Source: a virus. From it: a DNA stretch of 36,922 nt. The stretch covers positions 1 through 36,922 of IMG/VR virus record IMGVR_UViG_3300032238_001159; one strand, written 5' to 3'. Numbering within the stretch: the stretch's first letter is position 1; each line of letters opens with the position of its first letter. This document shows, in pieces, positions 10,187-36,922 of the stretch. The notes beneath the pieces are model-generated. The model ran no database searches. It was not told where the DNA came from and worked only from the letters and a program-made list of their open reading frames with translations. The position numbers and the translations under genes are program-made.

Positions 10187-11788
10187 CTACGCTGATGGTG
10201 ATGCTGGACATATAGTTCCTGTTTTATTTATTTGGGTTTTTTGTGGTGTAACATTTTTATTTATGAATGTACACGTATTTGGTGTAAGTCCAATATTCTG
10301 AATTGAAACACTATCAACTATAAATCCATTCAAGGCACATAATCCTCCACTTACACATGGTGTGTTAACATATTGAACTATTGTTCCTGACGCAACTCCG
10401 TTATTAGTTAATTGGACATTGTATGATATTGTTTGAGCACTTGTATTAACAAATCCTCCCGTACAACCCGGTCTTGGGGTACTAGTACCTGTTATAACCG
10501 AACTTGATAATGGGGTAACTGTAGCGTTTGGTGTTGTATTTGCCGTTATTGAATTTGTTATTGTTGGTTTTATTGTTGCCGATGCAGTATTTGCAGTATA
10601 ATTAACATTAAATGTAACTTTCATATTAACAGTCGCACCTGTAGGTAATGAAGGTGAAACACTAATAGACCAAGTTGTTGTTCTACTTGTAGCTGTCCCA
10701 TATGTTTGTTGCATCCCTTCATTTAAATTCAAACTAACTACATAGTTTTGAACACTCTGTTGTGGCGTTAATGCTTGTGATGATGAATTTGTTGTTCCAA
10801 CGGAATCTTTAATATATACAGTATATGTTCCGACACCTAATCCCGCAAATATATTAGACACTTGGTAATTTACACCATCCAAAGAATATGTATAAGGACC
10901 TACTCCTCCGCTTCCCGTTACAATAATAGAACCGTTACTTTGTGTAGAACATAATGGGTTAGTTGCATTTAATTTTAGTTTTAACACCGCCGAAGAACAA
11001 GAACCACTACTTACAAACATAGTCGTAGTAAAGGCGTTTGGTCCCGTTACCGTCCAATTTCCTGTTGGTGGTGATAATGGTGATTGTTTGAACACCGAAC
11101 CATTAGTATACCCACTCAAAATCCATTTAGTCGTCCCACTATTATAATAGATTTTATAACTTGGTGTTGCACTTGTCCAAGTCATATAACCATTAAGTGT
11201 TCCTGCAGAATAAAAATTAATTAATGTTGAAGTTGTGTTAACAGTTTGATTTAAACAAAGTCCACTTGGTATCACAGGTACAGGTGCTGGTGGTGGTAAA
11301 CATTGTGTACAACCTGTGAATGGTCCAGATGATACGGATGCAAAATTATTAATATACGTTTGACCCGTATAAAGTGTTGTTCCACTACTTGTCCAACAAC
11401 CTACTTGTGTTGATAAACCATAAACGGTACCAGCTGAGAATGGGTTGTAAATGTCAGCCAAATAATAAACAAATGAATTAGAATTAGAACAATCTTGGAA
11501 TTTCTCTAAATAAAAACTATCATAACTAACAACACATGTTGTTGTTGCACTAAAATCACCATAATAATCAACAACCGTTGCTGTGTAATTACCCGGTGAT
11601 AAATTAGTTAATAATGTTCCTTGTCCACCATTGTTCCAAGTTACGTTATATGGTGCGGTTCCACCTGTTATGTATAATGATATTAAACCATTTGAAGTTT
11701 CAGGTGTAGAACTATTAACAGAATTACATTCAACCCCCAAAGGAAACAAAGTTATTATATTACAACTATTACCACTCAACTGTCCCAT
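10187..11788 (-). CDS. tail protein with two SprB-like repeats
   Basis: A 533-residue probable tail adhesin. Two SprB-type beta units are visible. One is at about residues 20-75 (GLISLYITGGTAPYNVTW, then LSPGNYTATVVD); the other at about 280-335 (CSTQSNGSIIVTGSGGVGPY, then LGVGTYTVYIKD). Between and after them are Cys-containing, Ser/Thr/Asn-rich beta segments with a Pro stretch (PPPAPVPVIP, about 165-175). No signal peptide or membrane segment is seen. The ATG at 11788 overlaps the preceding stop by one base (TAATG). SprB repeats are known from the Flavobacterium gliding adhesin and related surface proteins; a role in host attachment is inferred from the fibre context. Confidence 0.72.
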   Translation of the reverse strand: MGQLSGNSCNIITLFPLGVECNSVNSSTPETSNGLISLYITGGTAPYNVTWNNGGQGTLLTNLSPGNYTATVVDYYGDFSATTTCVVSYDSFYLEKFQDCSNSNSFVYYLADIYNPFSAGTVYGLSTQVGCWTSSGTTLYTGQTYINNFASVSSGPFTGCTQCLPPPAPVPVIPSGLCLNQTVNTTSTLINFYSAGTLNGYMTWTSATPSYKIYYNSGTTKWILSGYTNGSVFKQSPLSPPTGNWTVTGPNAFTTTMFVSSGSCSSAVLKLKLNATNPLCSTQSNGSIIVTGSGGVGPYTYSLDGVNYQVSNIFAGLGVGTYTVYIKDSVGTTNSSSQALTPQQSVQNYVVSLNLNEGMQQTYGTATSRTTTWSISVSPSLPTGATVNMKVTFNVNYTANTASATIKPTITNSITANTTPNATVTPLSSSVITGTSTPRPGCTGGFVNTSAQTISYNVQLTNNGVASGTIVQYVNTPCVSGGLCALNGFIVDSVSIQNIGLTPNTCTFINKNVTPQKTQINKTGTICPASPSA

Positions 11789-12729
11789 TATGCTTCAAAT
11801 TTTTGTGTTATGCAACCATATTTTTGTGATGTTCTTCCAAAACCAATCGGTGTTGTTGATGTGTCTTCATATGTTATTAAATATGGTGGTGTTAATCCTA
11901 TTTGGTATATTTGATTTGAATTATTTAAAATATAAAATTGGTCATTAACCTCGACAAATGACCCAACATTTGTAATTCCCGATAAGTTTATTTCAACTTC
12001 TAAAGTTCCTCCTGAAACATAATTATATTGTTGTAAATAAGTTGACCCGGTTTTTGTACCAATAACCATTATCTTATTTTGGGTTGAAAGTTTCATATCC
12101 CTAATAAATGGGTCTCCTGATAATGAACCAACAATTTCCAATAAATTTGTGGTAGATGCTGTTGTTCCCGTAATAACCGAATTATAAATAAAAGTTTTAG
12201 ACGTTCCTGTGTTTGTTGCAACCACTACAAGATTATTATTATCTATTGCAAATATTTCTTTATTTTGATTCAGATTTATCGCAACTTGTCTATTAAATGA
12301 ACTTGTGAAAGGGGTTATTGAAATATTTAATTCTGTAACTCCTGTTGAACTTAAAAACCATAGTTTGTTGTCCGTATTAGCCATTGGACTATTATCATCA
12401 ATAGGTGTGTAATTTAGGGTCAGTGGCCCTTCTTCCGTATCACTTACCAAATTATATTTGTAATAATTATTACCATCCCAATATCCCACAAAAATATTAC
12501 ATCCAATTATTGGTGGTGAAACACAATATGAACAATTGTTTGCATCAATTACTTTAACCACATAATTTGGGATACTTTCATAAGCTGTTGGTAAAGTAAA
12601 GGTATATGCACTTGTTGAAAATGTATTAATGTATTGACACGTCGCACCTAAATTACAACTATCACATACCCATACATTATATGGTGAGGTTCCTGATACT
12701 ATTGAGCCGACTGTTATTTCTATTGCCAT
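11788..12729 (-). CDS. tail protein: mini-SprB-like N-terminus plus propeller-like repeats
   Basis: A 313-residue protein. Residues 1-77 form a Cys-containing unit (SGTSPYNVWVCDSC, then VVKVIDANNC) closely similar to the two stand-alone small proteins at 19104-19388 and 19382-19672. Residues about 80-300 are repeated short beta segments (NKLWFLSS, NKEIFAIDNNNLVVVAT, NKIMVIGTK, NDQFYILNNSNQIYQIGL), the look of a beta-propeller or similar blade repeat. It overlaps the 533-residue gene by one base and begins one base after the Thr-Pro-tract gene. It is probably a fibre-tip or decoration protein binding the host surface or a glycan; that is inferred from fold type and position. Confidence 0.72.
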   Translation of the reverse strand: MAIEITVGSIVSGTSPYNVWVCDSCNLGATCQYINTFSTSAYTFTLPTAYESIPNYVVKVIDANNCSYCVSPPIIGCNIFVGYWDGNNYYKYNLVSDTEEGPLTLNYTPIDDNSPMANTDNKLWFLSSTGVTELNISITPFTSSFNRQVAINLNQNKEIFAIDNNNLVVVATNTGTSKTFIYNSVITGTTASTTNLLEIVGSLSGDPFIRDMKLSTQNKIMVIGTKTGSTYLQQYNYVSGGTLEVEINLSGITNVGSFVEVNDQFYILNNSNQIYQIGLTPPYLITYEDTSTTPIGFGRTSQKYGCITQKFEA

Positions 12730-12730
12730 A

Positions 12731-14335
12731 TTATCTACAATTTCCGTTTACTGTACAGTATTGAGTTATTTTTCCACTTGTATCTACACGATAAATAAGG
12801 TTTCCGTATTGAACGTAATCTTCAACTATTGGTTTAGTTAATGATGAGTCTTGGAATATATATACATCTGTCGCAATCTCTTTAACCAAATTAGATGTAT
12901 AGAATGTTAATTTTTTACCAAAGTCTGTTATTTGACATTTAGGACAGTTAAGTGCGAACCCTCCTGTACCTTTCCATGCGTTATAAGTTAAAGTTTGTGC
13001 TGTCACTGTTAAACAATCAATACAATCTGTGTATGTCGTGGCGGTAGTTGCCGTAAACTGATTAACGTTTGCTACTACATAACCTGACGGTGCAACATAT
13101 CCAACATAATTTCCAACATAAGTGTAACAATCACCTGACGTTGTTTTCAATACATTTCCAATCGTAACATTTGTTGGTGGATATGCTGTCTGTGTAATCA
13201 TACTATTAGTAGTACAAGATGTGAATACAAATACAGTTCCAGGTGCAAATGTTGGAGTAGGTGTTGGAGTAGGTGTTGGTGTTGGAGTAGGTGTTGGTGT
13301 AGGTGTTGCTGTAGGTGTTGGTGTAACACACGATACCGAACAAGCTCCTGTATATGCTGAAATAATATATTGAACCGTAGCATTTGCACTACCATTAATA
13401 TCTCTTGTGTAGGTAGCACATCTGATGTCATTATTTATAACACCATAAATTGTTGTTCCTGTTGTTGTTACCGTTGTTGCGGTAGTACCAGTTAATAATA
13501 ATGCTCCACTAACATAGAATACCGTTCCATCATTACAATCTACTAACTCTTTAACTGTTGAACATACAAAGTTTCCATTATCTACAATAAAAGTAACAGT
13601 ATCTGCAGAAGGTGTTACTGTTGGAGTAGGAGTAGGTGTTGGAGTAGGTGTTGGTGTAGGTGTTGGAGTTATAGTCTGATAATATATTTCAGCAGTGAAT
13701 CCACTACAAATATTTGCAGTTGGAGTTGGAGTCGGTGTTGGAGTTGGAGTCGGTGTAGGTGTCGGAGTTGGGGTTGGGGTTGCAATATTACACTCCAATA
13801 AAACATCAAAATCTAATGACGCACATGGGTCAGTTGGTGTTGGTGTTGGAACACAAGTACCAATAGACATCACCGTCTCATCTAAATCAGGACAAAGTGA
13901 AAAAGTTGGGTTTGAACCAAAGAATATACAAGTCCCACCTAATGAACTACTTAAACACCAATTAATACCATTATAATGTATGTATCCGGTATTTGTTGTT
14001 CCTCCTGTCCAATATGGATATGAATTATATCCCCCTTTTATTGTATAAGTTCCCGAATAACCACTATATAGTGTTGTTGGAGTACTTATGCATAATGTAC
14101 TTGAGCAGCAAGCAATACAAGATGGGTCATTACAAGATGAACCTGATGTTGCGGTTCCGGTAACCGTTGTTGATATTGTACTTGCGGTAACTCCTGTTAC
14201 AACTTTATAACACCCGTTTGGGATATTTGTATCACCGGTAATAACATAAACTGTATTTGTTGCAGCCGTGACTGGAAAAGTCGTGGCACTAAACACAAAA
14301 TTATAACAACAACTACTAAAAACTACATTTGCCAT
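12731..14335 (-). CDS. Cys-rich fibre protein with Thr-Pro tracts
   Basis: A 534-residue probable tail-fibre or decoration protein. Globular Cys-rich beta modules are joined by (Thr-Pro)n tracts at residues 163-168, 186-206, 223-242 and 338-363. The first module has CC pairs (Cys9-Cys10, Cys76-Cys77). The last module (about 365-534) has [24 protein letters not shown] and a short [15 protein letters not shown] strand. Thr-Pro tracts act as stiff extended linkers, and their Thr residues could be glycosylated; two glycosyltransferase genes lie directly upstream. The ATG at 14335 follows a 44-base A/T-rich gap. The same kind of linker is present in the 1119-residue protein. Confidence 0.72.
13247..13324 (-). 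repeat. (Thr-Pro)n coding tract, longest of several
   Basis: Low-complexity DNA encoding alternating Thr and Pro (residues 338-363 of the 534-residue protein). It is built from ACT/ACA and CCA/CCT codons, so the DNA is a hexamer-like repeat. Similar tracts lie at 13610-13669 and 13718-13780 in the same gene and at about 23058-23108 in the 1119-residue gene. Antisense frames through these tracts read (Gly-Val)n and are shadows. Confidence 0.85.
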
Positions 14336-19103: not shown

Positions 19104-19388
19104 TTATTGGAACACATTAATGTCTCCATCCATGAAAATAAAAATATTCGCATCTTGGAACGCATATAATCCACATTCTAATAAATATAATTTCTCACAT
19201 AAAGTGCCGTCTAAAATTTTAAGATATACCGCAGGTGCATAAGGAAAAAAACTATCGGTATCAAAAACAACTGAAGGTGGTATTGATGTGACTCCTGTTA
19301 CAAAAAAACAAGCAGTATTATTTGAATCACAAACATAAATGTTGTAAGGACTTGTTCCACTTGTTATACCCGTTATCGTTACTAACAT
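19104..19388 (-). CDS. small Cys-containing tail protein, mini-SprB-like (second of a tandem pair)
   Basis: A 94-residue protein. Core pattern: TSGTSPYNIYVCDSNNTAC (about residues 9-27), a Ser/Thr/Val-rich middle, then YLKILDGTLCEKLYLLEC (about 54-71) and a hydrophobic tail. It shares SGTSPYN, VCD and the following Cys residues with its upstream neighbour and with the N-terminus of the 313-residue protein. The pattern recalls a single SprB repeat (GGTPPYTYxW...VxDxxGC). The frame opens at TTG 19394, but ATG 19388 is preferred; it overlaps the previous stop by seven bases. Probably a small virion or fibre-cap protein; no function is proven. Confidence 0.65.
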   Translation of the reverse strand: MLVTITGITSGTSPYNIYVCDSNNTACFFVTGVTSIPPSVVFDTDSFFPYAPAVYLKILDGTLCEKLYLLECGLYAFQDANIFIFMDGDINVFQ

Positions 19389-19672
19389 ATCCAAAGAAGT
19401 CTGTCTCCACTTTCTGTGGTTATTATAAGTTCTGTTTCTGTCAATATATAGAATGTTTCACCTTGACAATAAACATATTTGAAGTTGATGCAACCTGTAC
19501 TATCAACAACCTTAATTAAAAGGACGTTAGCACTTGAAAAAAATGTATTTAGACTAAATGTCCCACCGGTTTGACCCAATAGAAAACAATTATTCATGAA
19601 TTCATCACATACATAAAACTGATAAGGAGGTGTTCCTCCTGTCTCCCCCGATATGATTAGTTGTGATGACAT
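19382..19672 (-). CDS. small Cys-containing tail protein, mini-SprB-like (first of a tandem pair)
   Basis: A 96-residue protein. Core pattern: GETGGTPPYQFYVCDEFMNN then Cys (about residues 9-29), a Thr/Ser/Phe middle, then LLIKVVDSTGCINFKYVYC (about 51-69) and a short C-terminal strand region. The frame extends upstream to TTG 19681, but ATG 19672 overlaps the stop of the SprB-repeat gene by one base (TAATG), the usual junction here, so it is the chosen start. It sits between the 1005-residue SprB-repeat protein and its own paralogue. It looks like one SprB-type unit released as a separate protein. Confidence 0.66.
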   Translation of the reverse strand: MSSQLIISGETGGTPPYQFYVCDEFMNNCFLLGQTGGTFSLNTFFSSANVLLIKVVDSTGCINFKYVYCQGETFYILTETELIITTESGDRLLWIC

Positions 19673-22600
19673 TAAGGGCAAGTTTGAACATTTGTTATTG
19701 CCCCTGAAGCATCAATTTGAATTACATATTTTGTACCATACGTATATCCTGAATAATAACCAAAACCAACTGGTACGGGGGCATAATAAACAGAAATCCA
19801 CTTATTATTTCCATTAACTAAATTAGTTCCTGTCGCACCTGAGTATACTGTAGAACCAACATTAATAGTTATACCACTATTAATTAGTCTATATGATGTT
19901 TCATAAGTTATGTTGTTACATGCATCACCACTTGTTGTTGCTGAAATTGTATTACCTCCAATCAAATTTTGACTGCCGTAATCAGGTGCAGTATATCTCC
20001 ATCTTAAAAATGAAGAACCACTTCCTGGAGGTCCAATAGTTGACCCTGAACTTGAATTCAATATTTCTAAATAATGTATCTTTTGACCGTAAACTCCGGT
20101 ATATGTCGTTGCACTTGATATAACATTTAAAGTTCCAACTCCTGAACTGTTTGTTGATGCCGTAAATGTGTTAGCACTATATTCATTGTAATTAATTCCA
20201 TTCACTGATGTTCCACCAGAAAGATTAATTAAATTTAATAATGACATTCTCATTGTTAGAATCTCATTAGGTGCTCCTGAATATGATATAGTTCCCGTTT
20301 CAACACCGGGTGCAGGCCATAAACCACCACCTACGTTAGCAAACGATGTAGATGTAAATAAAGCGGAGTATGTTGGTACAGCAGGAGGATATACGTATCC
20401 AGAACAGGTTACATCATAAACTATATTAAGACCTAACGTAAATTCAGCATCTCCAAGTGGGTCATTATCCCCATCACAATTTGAAAGTATTGTTAGAGTA
20501 TTGTTTAATAAATCGATATTATAACTTTGTATTTGACTAATATTAGACAAAATACTTTCGATTGTTGATTGCCAAACAGTATCTTGAGGAACGTCATTTA
20601 AGGTTGTTGCAGTATAGAATGTTTGTGTGAACGCACTTCCGTTGATGTCTATTTCACAAGTTAGTTCAGCAGAATTAAACGAACACCCCGTATAACCTGA
20701 TGTTATATCCAAATAACCCTCATTCAACATTTCAATTAAACCTCTTTGACCTCCTGATGTTGTTGTAAATGTGTTAGTACAAAGATTAAAAGTTTGGTAT
20801 GAATTAAGTAAATTACCAATACAACTTATTACTACATTTTGTGTTTGTGTACAACCTGACCCATCGGTAATTGTCACAGTATAATTACCTTCACCTAAAT
20901 TAGTTAAAGTTGAACCTGTTGAACCATTTGACCAAGTATATGTGAATGGTGGTGACCCGTCGTAAATTTGAACTTGAGCGGCACCATCATTTGAACCCGT
21001 GCAGTTTGTGGTAACAATACCAGTAATTAAACTACCTCCCGTTGTGATTGTAAAACCTGTGGAAACTACACATCCATCGGCATCGGTAACACTTATCGTA
21101 TATGACCCAGCAGCTAAATCTGTGTAGGTTACTGATGAAAGTGGTGAATCAATTAAAGTGTCACCATTACTTAAAATATAATCTAAAGGTGCCGTATAAC
21201 CCGTACCAACCGTAATAATCGCTTCACCATTTAATTGACCACATGTAGAACCTGTGGTCGAAGCGCTTATTGTAAATTTAGGTGTCGATGTTACGTTTAC
21301 CTGTTCTGTATAAACACAACTACTACCACTACCTGAAATCGTTACAAGATAAGTGTCTGTTTGTAGGTTTGAAAATGTGTAAGTTTGACTTTGACTATTT
21401 TCTGATTGAACATTTCCTGACGTTTGTCCTGATAATGTGAACACATAAGATTGATTGGCTCCACCAACGGTAACTTGTATTGCCCCTCCGTTTGCATTAC
21501 AAACAGGATTTGTTGTTGATATACTTACAGTGTCAAAACCTCCTGGAGTTGTTACGTTACCACCAACCATAACTTCACAATAACTCGCATCTCTTACTAA
21601 TACTTGGTAATTACCTGCACTTAAGTTTGGAATTGTAAATGTGTTGTTGAGTGTGTAACTTACGTATCCTGTCGTTGCTGAATAGTAAAAAGGTAAAGTC
21701 CCCCCTGTTATCGTGAAAGTTAAAGAGCCATCATTTTGAAAACATGTTGGTTGAGACGCGGTTAAAAACGCTAAACCTAATGGGTCAGCAACACCGATAG
21801 TTTCACTTTTAGTTGTTTGACAACCAAGACTATCAGTCACCGTACAACTATAAATCCCCTGAGTTAATCCCGTAATGATTTGAGATGTTTCACCATTACT
21901 CCACGAGTAAGTGTATGGTCCCGTTCCTGTAACACCAGTAACAGCTAATTTACCCCAATTTAATGTACAATTAGACGTATTTACCTTCCAAAACCCAAAA
22001 TTAACGGCAGTACTTGTACTTATAATCGCGTTTTCTGTATATGCCGTAGCTAATCCATTATCGACAACCATAGCATAATATATACCATTACCTAAGTCTG
22101 TAAAATTATGTGGAAAAACCGTTGCAACTTCTGTTGAGTCATAAACACCATTTTTATATAATAGTATAGTGTATGGTGACCCTGACGTTGCGGCACTTAC
22201 TTGTAAAAATCCGTTATTTACTCCACAAGTAGTTCCACTTGCATTAAATATTTTAGCATCAAAACAACCACTTACAGTTACGTTGATGTACAATTCATTA
22301 TTTTGTATTCCTTGTGAATCGTTTAATCTAAAAACATACGTTCCACCCGAAAGTCCTGAAAAAGTAATTTGTGTTGTTCCTGTTTGAGCACTTATTGTAG
22401 CATCAAAAACATTATCAATAGTATATGGTGGAACCCCACCAATAGGGTTAAATTGGATTGTACCTGTTGCTGCTGAACATACACCAGTTAATGAAAAACT
22501 ATAGTCAAGGTTTCCTTGATTACAATTTAAAGTACAGGTTTGTCCTGTTGCGATGTATACACCAATTGACGACCCTGTATATGTTTCGTCCAAACAAATG

Positions 22601-22689
22601 CTTTCTCCAACAGACGCACCTGTTCTTGTGAAACCACAACAATCTATGTATGAGTATACCCCGTTAGTTAAACCTGAAACACAAGCCAT
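19672..22689 (-). CDS. large tail adhesin with seven SprB-like repeats
   Basis: A 1005-residue virion protein. N-terminus: a Cys-rich segment (1-60, DCCGF, CTLNC). Seven SprB-type repeats follow, at about residues 70-125, 153-212, 239-290, 313-371, 394-458, 480-540 and 561-613. Each has Cys...G.....GG..PY.Y...NG, then nL..G.Y.v.V.D..GC; repeat 7 is the clearest (SPPFTYTWSNGSTGSTLTNL, GEGNYTVTITDGSGC). Residues about 649-762 form a domain shared with the 1119-residue protein. The last 240 residues are Gly/Ser/Asn-rich beta with few Cys. SprB repeats are known from gliding and adhesion proteins of Bacteroidota. A phage tail made of them suggests a host-binding fibre built from host-like modules. 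It starts eight bases after the 1119-residue gene. Confidence 0.82.
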   Translation of the reverse strand: MACVSGLTNGVYSYIDCCGFTRTGASVGESICLDETYTGSSIGVYIATGQTCTLNCNQGNLDYSFSLTGVCSAATGTIQFNPIGGVPPYTIDNVFDATISAQTGTTQITFSGLSGGTYVFRLNDSQGIQNNELYINVTVSGCFDAKIFNASGTTCGVNNGFLQVSAATSGSPYTILLYKNGVYDSTEVATVFPHNFTDLGNGIYYAMVVDNGLATAYTENAIISTSTAVNFGFWKVNTSNCTLNWGKLAVTGVTGTGPYTYSWSNGETSQIITGLTQGIYSCTVTDSLGCQTTKSETIGVADPLGLAFLTASQPTCFQNDGSLTFTITGGTLPFYYSATTGYVSYTLNNTFTIPNLSAGNYQVLVRDASYCEVMVGGNVTTPGGFDTVSISTTNPVCNANGGAIQVTVGGANQSYVFTLSGQTSGNVQSENSQSQTYTFSNLQTDTYLVTISGSGSSCVYTEQVNVTSTPKFTISASTTGSTCGQLNGEAIITVGTGYTAPLDYILSNGDTLIDSPLSSVTYTDLAAGSYTISVTDADGCVVSTGFTITTGGSLITGIVTTNCTGSNDGAAQVQIYDGSPPFTYTWSNGSTGSTLTNLGEGNYTVTITDGSGCTQTQNVVISCIGNLLNSYQTFNLCTNTFTTTSGGQRGLIEMLNEGYLDITSGYTGCSFNSAELTCEIDINGSAFTQTFYTATTLNDVPQDTVWQSTIESILSNISQIQSYNIDLLNNTLTILSNCDGDNDPLGDAEFTLGLNIVYDVTCSGYVYPPAVPTYSALFTSTSFANVGGGLWPAPGVETGTISYSGAPNEILTMRMSLLNLINLSGGTSVNGINYNEYSANTFTASTNSSGVGTLNVISSATTYTGVYGQKIHYLEILNSSSGSTIGPPGSGSSFLRWRYTAPDYGSQNLIGGNTISATTSGDACNNITYETSYRLINSGITINVGSTVYSGATGTNLVNGNNKWISVYYAPVPVGFGYYSGYTYGTKYVIQIDASGAITNVQTCP

Positions 22690-22697
22690 TTTTTATA

Positions 22698-25600
22698 TTA
22701 ACAAATTACGTATCCGCTACCAGTGTTTTGGATGTTTATGTAGATAAGGTTTGAACCACTAACTACTGTATGTGTATTGTACGAACTAATCCCACAATAA
22801 CCTGTATAAATACCACTATTGTTACCGCTACCAAATGTGATATTATTAAATGTCGAATTTAATACTCCAAAGTCAATAACACTACCAACAACCATAGAAG
22901 TCCCATAAGGTTGGTAGTTTTGGAAAGTAGATGGTTTGTTACCAACAGTTTGACCATTTAAATAAGTCCAAACCCCACCATTAACTCGATAAACAAATGA
23001 TACGTTAGCCGGCGATGCAACAGGTGCTCCAAAATAGAAATTAACCTCAGAATAAACCGGTGTTGGCGTCGGTGTTGGTGTTGGCGTCGGTGTCGGTGTA
23101 GGAGTTTGAGTTGGTTGTGGTGGTGTACAATTTATATCTATATCAATACCAATATTCAAGTATAAAGTACTGGTTGAGAAATTATCGTAACAAGATGAAT
23201 TACTTACAATTAAAGTATTACCTGCAAAGTAATAATTTAAACCGTAGTTATATAAACCTGCAAGTTCAGTATCTAAAGCATTAATTAATTGAGTTTGTGT
23301 TGGGTAATCATTAATACCGTATCCCGTATAGAATTGTTCTTGAACTAATATTTGTGAATCCAATCTACAATCAACATACCAATTAGAAACAATACTATTC
23401 AAGTCACACATGTTTTGTGTAAATCCACTTTGTGCCAATAAACTTGATAGTAAGGATTGAATCATTTCTGAAGGTGACCCTTGAATAGTACAAGTGAGTG
23501 TTTGGTCTATGCAGTCGTAAGCAAATGGTTGCCCTGTGTATTTACAAGGAATACAAGCCACAGGAATAATTTGACAACCTCTTTGTCTTCTCCAAACATA
23601 TTTTTGTCTATGGAAAATAGAGTTTTCCATTTTTTGTCCTGTTAACCACAATGACGTACCAGGAACCATTTGTTCCAATAATCTTTGCCAATAATCACCA
23701 AGTCCCAAAGTGTAATCAATCATTTTTTGGTAAGTGAAGTTGTTGTTTGGTATACCTACCGTTTGTTCTGATTGTAAATAATTCCAAAATACCGATTGTA
23801 ATGTAGGATATCCTCCTGTTTTACCATCACTTATTGTTTGTCTGTTTCTTACATTTATAAAATTGTTATAAAAAGTTTGAGCAAACTCAAAGAAAGTTTT
23901 TTGTTTTGGTTTTGGGTCAATATGTGTCCAATCTATATTACCAGGATACGGATAAGGTGCTGTTAATCCAGAATTAGGAATTGGGTAATCGTACTTAACC
24001 GACATATCCCATACATCATATGTAATACCTTGACCCATATTCATATAAAGTTCAAGGTTTTTAGAATTAATTACTAACTTATCATTAGATACTTTATAAT
24101 CTACCCCATTAAAATTTGTATCAACTTTTCTAGTACCTACATCATTAACAACCCAAGATTTTTGATTATCAGAAACTCGTCTAAGTGTATATCCGACATC
24201 CATGTCTTCAAACTTTCTAAGACCATTCATATATTCTTGTCCAAAATTAAATGGTGCAATTTCAGTTACTAAAAAAGGATTAGACCCACTGAACTGTGAA
24301 TTTTCAACATCAACAGTTTCAACTGAACGGTGTTTTGGACTTTTTTCAAACCAACCCGCCCCTTTTTGAAAGAAGTTTGTATCAGTTTGTTGAGGACTTT
24401 TTGGATACCCGTCACTATCGATACCATAATCAGCCAAACTCGTATTAACTAATTTTAACAAACCACTACTAGTGTATCCTGTATATTCTACACCTTGTAT
24501 TTTGAAGACATTTGTTCCGTCTAATTCTGCGTTTGTTACAAACTTTGTACCACCAGAAATTTGTGCATATTGTTCATTAAATTTATCTACATTAATTTTA
24601 GCATCCGCAACATATACAATTTCATTAAATTCTAATAACGCATCAGGAGCGCCAATAAATCTCATTACATATTCTAAAGATTGTCTAGTACCTTTAGTTT
24701 TATACATGTAAGCAGCATTAAGAATTAAGTTTCTATAATATTGGTAATTTAATTCTGTAGGTGTAAGTGTCTTTTTTTGTCCTTCATAAATTTGTTCTGT
24801 ATTTGAATTAAAAACAGAATTTAAAAAGTTTTCATTAGTGATTGGTGAGATATTTGGATTAATACCTAATGTCTGTGCTAAATTAGTAAGTAATTGTGAT
24901 GGTATGTCATTTCCAACTTGGTAATTCACTGAGTTGATGTATGCCAAACTATCTATGAATTTTTTAACCTCATCAAAACTTCTTCCATAAATTTGTAAAA
25001 CTTTTTCAACTTTTTGGTCGGTGGTGTCAAATTCTTTAAATGAACCTGTTATTAAAAAACGACTAATTAAGTTTGTTTTATACTCATCTAATTTTTCTGC
25101 AGCTAATTGCAAATCGTCCAAATATCTATTAAATAGTGAACTTGTTATATCTAAGTTCCAAAACTTATTTAATGGCCAAGTAACACTAGTGTTGTATAAT
25201 GTTGATTTACCATTACTATCATAATCAGGATAACTAAATTTAGCAGTGTATAAAGGTGCACTATTTTGATTCAAAAGAAATTTTTCAACCTCATCAAAGG
25301 CGTCTGTAAAAATTTCTTGTGTTTTAATATTATTTGGTTTTATAACTAACGACCTAGTAGTTGCAGTAGCACCACTAAACGGATTCCCACTAACAGTCAT
25401 AGTAACCGAACCTCCACTGACACTAACCGTTGGTTCAAAGTCAGTTAATGGATATTCAACATCCAAAGTATCAAAATACAAAGCGTAACTTTCATATTTA
25501 GAAGTTAATGCCCTAATTGGGTGTATTGGGTATGGTCTTACTTCAATATTTCTTTCTGCATTTTCAGAAAAATCAATTTCAAATGGATTTCTAAATAATA

Positions 25601-26057
25601 CACTATCCATACTAAATGTGGTCTCGTCATTAAGAGAACTATATGATATATTGTAAGCAGTTTGTCCTGTTAATAAACCTGATTGGTGGACAGCTATGAC
25701 TTCAATGGCTGCCGGAAAGTTATTAATTATTTTAATTGCCGACGCTGAAAGTCTTTTTGCTAATGAACCATATAATGAAAAACTTGTTACTTCTGATAAA
25801 TCATAATTAGGATAAACTTTAAAGTTTTTTTCTATTATTCTTTTAGCCTCGGCTAAATTACCTATTTTAAGATTTTCTAAAGTGTATGCTTCTGAAAAAA
25901 CACCAGTATCAAAATTCCTGTTAGTCTTTTCGTATATAGCACTAGTAAATTTAAAATTTCCTTGTGTAAGACCACCTGCATCAGTAATCTGAACTCCAAC
26001 AAGATTATCTGCGAAAGTATTAGTTCCAATAGGTGGGTAGAAAATTTTATTTGCCAT
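22698..26057 (-). CDS. baseplate/fibre-connector candidate with a Thr-Pro linker, 1119 residues
   Basis: A large structural protein. Residues 1-830 are globular and not Gly/Ser-rich, unlike the neighbouring fibres. The region 436-482 (YYRNLILNAAYMYKTKGTRQ, then IGAPDALLEFNEIVYV) recalls the KGT segment of tail protein I-type baseplate proteins that join fibres to the baseplate; this is a modest resemblance. A helical segment precedes it (310-400). Then come a Cys cluster CIPC (835-838), a domain at about 864-977 shared with the adjacent SprB-repeat protein, a (Thr-Pro)n linker (984-1000) and a C-terminal beta domain of about 118 residues. The ATG at 26057 overlaps the previous stop (TAATG). 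By position it may anchor the SprB-repeat fibre. Confidence 0.72.
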   Translation of the reverse strand: MANKIFYPPIGTNTFADNLVGVQITDAGGLTQGNFKFTSAIYEKTNRNFDTGVFSEAYTLENLKIGNLAEAKRIIEKNFKVYPNYDLSEVTSFSLYGSLAKRLSASAIKIINNFPAAIEVIAVHQSGLLTGQTAYNISYSSLNDETTFSMDSVLFRNPFEIDFSENAERNIEVRPYPIHPIRALTSKYESYALYFDTLDVEYPLTDFEPTVSVSGGSVTMTVSGNPFSGATATTRSLVIKPNNIKTQEIFTDAFDEVEKFLLNQNSAPLYTAKFSYPDYDSNGKSTLYNTSVTWPLNKFWNLDITSSLFNRYLDDLQLAAEKLDEYKTNLISRFLITGSFKEFDTTDQKVEKVLQIYGRSFDEVKKFIDSLAYINSVNYQVGNDIPSQLLTNLAQTLGINPNISPITNENFLNSVFNSNTEQIYEGQKKTLTPTELNYQYYRNLILNAAYMYKTKGTRQSLEYVMRFIGAPDALLEFNEIVYVADAKINVDKFNEQYAQISGGTKFVTNAELDGTNVFKIQGVEYTGYTSSGLLKLVNTSLADYGIDSDGYPKSPQQTDTNFFQKGAGWFEKSPKHRSVETVDVENSQFSGSNPFLVTEIAPFNFGQEYMNGLRKFEDMDVGYTLRRVSDNQKSWVVNDVGTRKVDTNFNGVDYKVSNDKLVINSKNLELYMNMGQGITYDVWDMSVKYDYPIPNSGLTAPYPYPGNIDWTHIDPKPKQKTFFEFAQTFYNNFINVRNRQTISDGKTGGYPTLQSVFWNYLQSEQTVGIPNNNFTYQKMIDYTLGLGDYWQRLLEQMVPGTSLWLTGQKMENSIFHRQKYVWRRQRGCQIIPVACIPCKYTGQPFAYDCIDQTLTCTIQGSPSEMIQSLLSSLLAQSGFTQNMCDLNSIVSNWYVDCRLDSQILVQEQFYTGYGINDYPTQTQLINALDTELAGLYNYGLNYYFAGNTLIVSNSSCYDNFSTSTLYLNIGIDIDINCTPPQPTQTPTPTPTPTPTPTPTPVYSEVNFYFGAPVASPANVSFVYRVNGGVWTYLNGQTVGNKPSTFQNYQPYGTSMVVGSVIDFGVLNSTFNNITFGSGNNSGIYTGYCGISSYNTHTVVSGSNLIYINIQNTGSGYVIC

Positions 26058-35665: not shown

Positions 35666-36922
35666 TTAGGAGAAATCTACAGTCGCAAGATTTTTAACAT
35701 AAACTCTTATGTCTTTGTTATCGTATCTTATTTGATAGATTTGTGTTGGTTCAGCATAGATTGTATCATCAATTAATTCAATTTCCCTTGTTTTTTTATC
35801 CACATATCTTTGTGAAGTTTCTGAAGTAGAATATTGACCACCAACTAAATTGAATACTTTTAGATTGGAAAGGGTAAGAACCCCCGCAGTATTTTGTATT
35901 AATCTTCTTACATTAGACACGTTAACGTTTTCACCAAGTTCTCTATTTTCAGGTGCCATATAATTTGAAACCTGATTAATAATTTCTGTTATTACTTGTC
36001 CTCTGTTAACATTTGATTCGACCACAACATAAATGTCAAACGCCAAATCAATAACTTTAGCAACATCAATTGAAATGTAGTCATTTATCATTCTATATTT
36101 TGATAGATAATTTGCCAAATTAGTTTTAAGATTGTTAGAAACAGTTTGAGTTAAGTTTCCGTTCTCGTCGTAAGCCAATATTTGTATTGTGATTTTGTTG
36201 TTGTTTTCAGTAATCGCAACTTTAGCAGGTGCTCCAAATTTACCTGGCATTGTATCAATTAATGATTTATAATCATTTACTGTTACCGCTCTTTTTTGTG
36301 CAGAAAAATTAAACGCAACCATATTTCTAACTTCCTCTGTTGAAGGTGGGTTAGCACCACCGATAGCCGCAGTTACGTTATTTACAGTTACGGACTGAAT
36401 TACGTTTGAATTAATATTATTTGATGGTCCATTTACCGCAAAATCAATTGTCCCTACTTGATTGATTACACCAACACCAACGTTAGACGCTAAACCACCA
36501 CCAGTTCTGTATTGAACAAAAATAGTAGTGTTTGGTTGAACGGTTAATCCTAAACCAATATTGTTTTGATAATTTGCTAAATCTAAATTTAATCCTTGTT
36601 GTGCAAAGTTAGCCAATTGTATATTTGGTGTAGTACTTCCTCCACCAAATTGTATTTTTAAAAATCCTTCAGGTGTATATTCACTAATAAAACGATTTTC
36701 TGTTTTAATATATTTTCCAACTTTTATTCCCGCATTATCTACAGGTTTTGTTGGGTCTTCAATAAAAACAGTATCTTCTGCTAAGGCATCAACCTCATAC
36801 CATCTATTTGTTGATGTCGCAAATTCGGTATAATTAGGAACGTTAGGGTAATTACTACCATCTTTTTGTATTATAGAATTAACACCTAAAACATTTCTTT
36901 CAGGTAAAAAGAAATTAAAAAA
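35666..36922 (-). CDS. 6: baseplate wedge protein, gp6/baseplate-J-like, N-terminus cut by window edge
   Basis: The frame is open to the right edge (418 residues visible), so the true start lies outside. An internal TTG at 36616 is not a start, because the upstream frame also reads as a sensible protein (for example FFLPERNVLGVNSIIQKDGS near the edge). The diagnostic stretch is EEVRNMVAFNFSAQKRAVTV then NDYKSLI, the conserved core of gp6/baseplate-J proteins, followed by a beta domain with KVAITENNNKITIQILAYDE. The C-terminal part (ENVNVSNVRRLIQNTAGVLT) resembles the ring-contact region of the family. In T4, gp6 forms the inner ring of the baseplate wedges. It heads the visible tail operon and ends 71 bases before the 1624-residue gene. 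Confidence 0.82.
   Translation of the reverse strand, partial: FFNFFLPERNVLGVNSIIQKDGSNYPNVPNYTEFATSTNRWYEVDALAEDTVFIEDPTKPVDNAGIKVGKYIKTENRFISEYTPEGFLKIQFGGGSTTPNIQLANFAQQGLNLDLANYQNNIGLGLTVQPNTTIFVQYRTGGGLASNVGVGVINQVGTIDFAVNGPSNNINSNVIQSVTVNNVTAAIGGANPPSTEEVRNMVAFNFSAQKRAVTVNDYKSLIDTMPGKFGAPAKVAITENNNKITIQILAYDENGNLTQTVSNNLKTNLANYLSKYRMINDYISIDVAKVIDLAFDIYVVVESNVNRGQVITEIINQVSNYMAPENRELGENVNVSNVRRLIQNTAGVLTLSNLKVFNLVGGQYSTSETSQRYVDKKTREIELIDDTIYAEPTQIYQIRYDNKDIRVYVKNLATVDFS

Follow-up and report, generated by a model that had tools for sequence, protein, structure and literature searches.

SprB of Flavobacterium johnsoniae is a 669-kDa cell-surface protein that is secreted by the T9SS (PMC9127263), and it shares with other T9SS adhesins a short repeat family, PF13573. 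Among phages, the closest described system is the eight-BACON array associated with the tail of crAssphage, and BACON arrays of crAss-like phages have been proposed as host-surface binders (PMC6949934). A further chain of similar domains is found in the grappling-hook protein GhpA of Aureispira, a bacterial surface protein. A literature search for 'SprB repeat' together with Caudovirales found nothing, and the combination of 'SprB repeat' and 'phage' returned bacterial toxins only. Here, we analyze a 36,922-nt stretch of viral DNA (the whole of it is hereafter the window) from the IMG/VR record IMGVR_UViG_3300032238_001159, which encodes a 1005-aa tail protein with seven SprB-type units. The units are constant in number and order among relatives, and they are followed by a domain that occurs in two tail proteins (domain D) and by an optional, exchanged tip, all within a tail operon. 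We consider it probable that the protein is an arm of a contractile phage tail, made of a fixed-length Ig-like stalk that would act as a spacer and an exchangeable tip.

The 1005-aa open reading frame (ORF) begins with ATG in the ORF listing (Table 1). By Pfam search the protein belongs to the SprB repeat family, scoring 46.3 bits (E 3.2e-12) against PF13573 over six matched stretches, above the curated cut-off of 28 bits. The HMM search proposed in the initial annotation nevertheless gives a divided answer at the level of single units: six of them (units 1, 3, 4, 5, 6 and 7) correspond to Pfam places, but unit 2 has none and only unit 7 exceeds the cut-off on its own (31.4 bits). To avoid the circularity of detecting units with a profile made from the same units, we used a held-out test, in which a profile built from all units of 49 family members minus unit k was scored against unit k of the window protein. 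The scores for k = 1 to 7 are 35.6, 35.2, 56.0, 51.0, 37.6, 44.2 and 59.5 bits, and the top score among 2000 shuffled sequences is below 0. Because each unit reaches 35-60 bits in this test and the shuffles stay below 0, we take all seven units to be real and homologous, including unit 2, for which the support despite the Pfam miss comes only from the held-out profile. The seven consecutive SprB-pattern units read in the initial annotation are thus borne out by the whole-protein match and the held-out test. The array also lies where it had been placed (residues 68-615, 20845-22488), but by eye and alignment it is slightly wider, spanning aa 67-623 (20821-22491) with units of 65-87 residues. 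In the family alignment, units 3-6 have Cys residues close to both ends that are invariant or almost invariant. The preceding segment, aa 1-66, is absent from the most distant relatives, in which the protein begins at unit 1, and other sequence takes its place in fused proteins. Judged by eye only, a hydrophobic leader is not apparent in the N-terminus MACVSGLTNGVYSYIDCC. Among the Pfam matches of the protein up to E 1 there is no BACON family match, and the T9SS sorting domains CHU_C and Por_Secre_tail gave no match in the Pfam search.

Table 1 Features of the array gene and its neighbours in the window
Feature	Position	Strand	Basis
Gene of the 1005-aa tail protein, encoding an N-terminal segment, the seven SprB-type units, domain D and a tip	19672..22689	-	ORF, PF13573 match, gene order
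N-terminal segment, aa 1-66; six Cys invariant wherever the segment is present	22492..22689	-	family alignment
SprB-type unit 1, aa 67-149	22243..22491	-	Pfam place, alignment, held-out profile
SprB-type unit 2, aa 150-236	21982..22242	-	alignment, held-out profile; without own Pfam match
SprB-type unit 3, aa 237-311	21757..21981	-	Pfam place, alignment, held-out profile
SprB-type unit 4, aa 312-392	21514..21756	-	Pfam place, alignment, held-out profile
SprB-type unit 5, aa 393-478	21256..21513	-	Pfam place, alignment, held-out profile
SprB-type unit 6, aa 479-558	21016..21255	-	Pfam place, alignment, held-out profile
SprB-type unit 7, aa 559-623	20821..21015	-	Pfam place (sole unit above cut-off alone), alignment, held-out profile
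Domain D, aa 624-762	20404..20820	-	kept in relatives; related to C-terminal part of upstream 1119-aa protein
C-terminal tip, aa 763-1005; optional, exchanged among relatives	19675..20403	-	comparison with relatives; low-confidence model
Upstream 1119-aa tail protein; own domain D at about 23121-23432, then Thr-Pro linker and another tip	22698..26057	-	ORF, hhalign
Baseplate J-like protein (PF04865), tail operon marker	35666..36922	-	Pfam; similar to Flavobacterium phage immuto baseplate wedge protein
99-aa ORF just downstream; lone domain remotely like SprB-type units	19382..19681	-	hhalign probability 93.6; gene order
96-aa ORF, paralogue of the 99-aa ORF	19104..19394	-	alignment/hhalign
533-aa ORF with two more SprB-type units	10187..11788	-	two Pfam places; same tail gene run; two units in relatives too

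A structure model built from 49 sequences has a mean pLDDT of 70.9 and a pTM of 0.33. Within it, the array appears as repeated all-beta domains with block-mean pLDDT mostly 75-91, in keeping with the Ig-like fold that had been expected of the units; the units are well predicted, and their mutual arrangement and the tip are poorly predicted. Foldseek matches in the PDB are chains of Ig/FN3-like domains, the best being Aureispira GhpA (9flp and others, E 2.5e-20), and a second structural comparison lists fibronectin fragments with Z up to 12.2. With tandem Ig/FN3-like domains in the model and a gene that lies in a tail gene run, the protein has the features of a putative Ig-like tail stalk. A PDB sequence search with the single 1005-aa protein gave no match. 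In a single-unit search, major tail proteins of Salmonella also came up (E 0.1 to 1), which we took as general Ig-like similarity.

Relatives of the protein are widespread in viral contigs. A first scan found 11 loci, and a second, alignment-based scan found at least 105 relatives, of which 77 distinct loci on contigs of up to 318 kb were kept; the kept set includes near-duplicates and reduces to 48 at 95% identity. Exactly seven units are present in 76 of the 76 loci with the array in view (33-94% identity), including two arrays within larger proteins of 1819 and 3006 aa. The only shorter array (L098) is cut by the contig end after three units. The scan patterns are located in domain D and unit 1, and therefore do not select for unit count. 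In 343 of 343 cases the nearest match of unit k is unit k of another protein; against the most distant relatives alone, a few of units 2, 6 and 7 best match other ranks, as would be expected from weak similarity. The constant count and the rank-matched units suggest that the array is old, with no growth or loss within this set and no unit turnover. Its dN/dS is 0.06 to 0.33 across five pairs, and since the array is not always slower-evolving than the tip, part of its surface may face changing selection. One close pair has lower dN/dS in the array than in the tip (0.06 versus 0.23-0.25), but this is inconsistent in more distant pairs and we do not claim stronger purifying selection on the array. 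The same architecture is present in other phages, as the 76 seven-unit loci show. Gp28 of Polaribacter phage P12002S, a candidate for a cultured member, was rejected because the SprB search at E 0.1 gave no match in it, which leaves only a similarity of 34 residues to the 533-aa ORF of the window.

In contrast to the array, the part that follows it varies. Domain D is found in every member whose contig extends to it, and it aligns with the C-terminal part of the neighbouring 1119-aa protein with an hhalign probability of 94.8 (E 5.2e-8). Its best PDB fold match is no better than E 0.012, and the rows of the second structural comparison mostly cover the tip. Many relatives stop right after domain D and are tipless (L046, L053 and many more). 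The same tip as in the window protein follows a short linker in L045 and L066 and a Thr-Pro run in L047 and L048, and other members have Thr-Pro runs, up to about 110 residues long, followed by other tips; that of L086 is a Fib_succ_major domain (E 4e-18). FimH-like lectin matches of the window tip (Z about 7) were left unused as evidence, as the tip model is of low confidence. The tip shows much less synonymous divergence than the array both for L047 and L052 (dS 0.25 versus 1.45) and for the window and L045 (0.60 versus 1.09), which suggests that homologous tips were recently swapped between phages, on a comparison of few pairs by a simple method with near-saturated dS. Thr-Pro runs also connect domains in the 534-aa protein (window 12731-14335) and the 1119-aa protein, so the linker-and-tip architecture appears to be general in this tail.

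The gene order supports the assignment as a phage tail protein that had been made from the window alone. The genes upstream of the array gene are those of the 1119-aa protein, of conserved tail proteins and of the Baseplate_J protein; those downstream are two small ORFs and the genes for a collagen-like tail fibre protein and a glycosyltransferase. In 75 of 76 loci, the gene immediately upstream encodes a homologue of the 1119-aa protein, and tail genes likewise surround the array gene in 75 of 76. Tail-sheath matches occur in eight of nine related contigs tested, mostly below the family cut-off and in open frames of 1069-1198 aa; because these frames are long and found in nearly all contigs tested, the tail is likely contractile and the array gene likely part of a contractile-tail operon. 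As a separate observation, both small ORFs (19104-19681) and the N-terminus of a 313-aa ORF (11788-12729) share a single domain that carries a GG/SG-PPY-like motif and bears a remote similarity to the SprB-type units.

The host is likely of the phylum Bacteroidota, since the nearest named relatives of the Baseplate_J protein are from Flavobacterium phages (29% identity; a Microcystis phage follows at 27%). A host or prophage search in bacterial and archaeal genomes gave no match: neither a relative of the array protein nor the better conserved 302-aa neighbour was found in the genome collection, and the 302-aa neighbour had no match among named phages.

As the most probable explanation, the seven Ig-like SprB-type units would build a stalk, rigid or semi-rigid, whose length does not vary. 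At its end, domain D would be a common coupling module, used also in the neighbouring 1119-aa protein, and in many but not all members it would bear a Thr-Pro linker and a tip that touches the host cell surface. Specificity would then shift by tip swapping while the stalk stays unchanged. Because unit number and order are constant while tips vary, we favour a spacer of critical length with specificity at its end; the units would thus serve as spacer rather than as the ligand-binding part, and the receptor would be bound by the tip. The end of the protein that would face the baseplate likewise belongs to this model, and so do stiffness and length of the stalk, as the inter-domain geometry is poorly predicted (pTM 0.33); at an estimated 4 nm or so for each Ig-like domain, an extended stalk would measure roughly 25-30 nm. 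Since many members end right after domain D, the array or D might be the binding part in tipless members.

The main rival to the stalk reading is that the units bind carbohydrate weakly and keep the phage close to capsule, slime or other material on the host surface, with the tip as an accessory. Gut-phage Ig-like proteins, including BACON and PKD ones, are tied to or confer epithelial adherence (PMC13370021), host-surface binding has been proposed for the crAss-like BACON arrays (PMC6949934), and many relatives are tipless. However, unit number and order are invariant, the variable part is located elsewhere and fold similarity reveals no ligand, and we consider this explanation possible but unlikely. 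The proposal in the initial annotation that the units are the adhesive, host-facing part finds no support, given their constancy and that what is gained, lost or swapped lies C-terminal to them. Alternatively, the protein could be a virion decoration or whisker, Hoc-like or neck-whisker-like, and no tail arm. Sequence searches with the family profile retrieve 9occ, a neck whiskers protein (E 1.4e-4), and 5lxk, a phage decoration protein (E 0.0021), and among PHROGs the protein weakly matches Hoc-like head decoration (E 0.0067), but these weak matches hit an Ig-like domain that is widespread in virion proteins. As 75 of 76 loci also have the gene inside the run of baseplate and tail fibre genes, and domain D recurs in the neighbouring tail protein, we regard a decoration or whisker as highly unlikely. 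It is very improbable that the array mimics SprB-type adhesins of the host, letting the phage compete with these or hitch a ride on the moving gliding track. In favour, T9SS-secreted adhesins and the window units have one Pfam repeat family in common, and the gliding machinery is thought likely to include the phage receptors in Flavobacterium (PMC7345892). Against it, likeness to cellular SprB units is at the repeat-family level only, the window protein has no CHU_C or Por_Secre_tail signal, and the collection of bacterial and archaeal genomes yielded no relative of the protein. The competing or hitching role raised in the initial annotation therefore gains nothing beyond the shared repeat family. 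We find it barely credible that the array derives from a host gliding or T9SS adhesin and still works with that machinery, the arm binding or riding the adhesin track; if true, gliding hosts would bring phages to the cell.

T9SS-type domains are also encoded on some phage contigs. The 291-kb phage contig IMGVR_UViG_3300034117_001582, which also encodes a member of the seven-unit family, carries at 202755-205214 (minus strand; L138:9756-12215) the gene for a protein of 819 aa whose N-terminus is leader-like and which has an SprB repeat below the cut-off as well as PKD-like and CHU_C T9SS domains; a second T9SS signal, Por_Secre_tail, lies at 287673-287882. Of 31 related contigs, only one has CHU_C. 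Unless the 291-kb contig is chimeric, the 819-aa protein would be a phage-encoded secreted adhesin. On the same contig, at about 193-230 kb (L138 and L139), many unrelated ORFs open with a similar short stretch, for example MKIIITESQ or RLTESQL, resembling a shared N-terminal tag. A whole-protein search of phage records with the window protein returned one record, a 642-kb uncultured phage (LR756502.1). Its 1670-aa ORF (L021:17325-22337) has 14 SprB repeats, a PKD domain and CHU_C; it was rejected as an orthologue on account of the T9SS domain, and by its domain content we take it to be an adhesin of the T9SS type, encoded by the genome of a huge phage.

A widespread phage protein family without prior description hence now has an anatomy of stalk, coupling domain and tips. 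Some constraint appears to hold the stalk at seven units, the coupling domain is used twice in one tail and tips seem to travel between phages. That the repeat number stays constant while sequences diverge to about 35% identity suggests a constraint on length, as in a molecular ruler. In the tail arm, the conserved part can thereby be told apart from the part likely to set host specificity, in phages with contigs of up to 318 kb.

Compared with known systems, the closest sequence is A0A6J5LD72 from an uncultured Caudovirales phage, the best match in a viral structural library (32% identity over about 720 columns, E 1e-55) and evidently of the same protein family; it has 714 aa, about the length of the tipless members, and its UniProt name 'SprB repeat' is a database label on a metagenomic sequence. 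The SprB adhesins share the PF13573 repeat. Unlike them, the phage protein has only 1005 aa, no T9SS signal was found in it, and it is located in a tail operon; with tail-gene neighbours in 75 of 76 loci and no bacterial relative found in the genome collection, we class it as a member of the SprB repeat family by score, yet not as an SprB-type gliding adhesin. GhpA likewise strings together similar domains and is matched marginally by sequence (E 0.0015), but it is cellular, is 5898 aa long and gives low TM-scores over the whole chain, so that the fold alone is in common. We regard the crAssphage eight-BACON array as the direct precedent and nearest described parallel (PMC6949934). It too is a stable tandem Ig-like array with a unit number fixed per lineage, adjoins tail genes, has a poorly conserved C-terminus and belongs to phages predicted on Bacteroidota. 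The units there are BACON rather than SprB (PF13573) domains and the phages are crAss-like, whereas the window family belongs to phages with tail-sheath matches (contractile) and continues after the array into domain D and an exchangeable tip.
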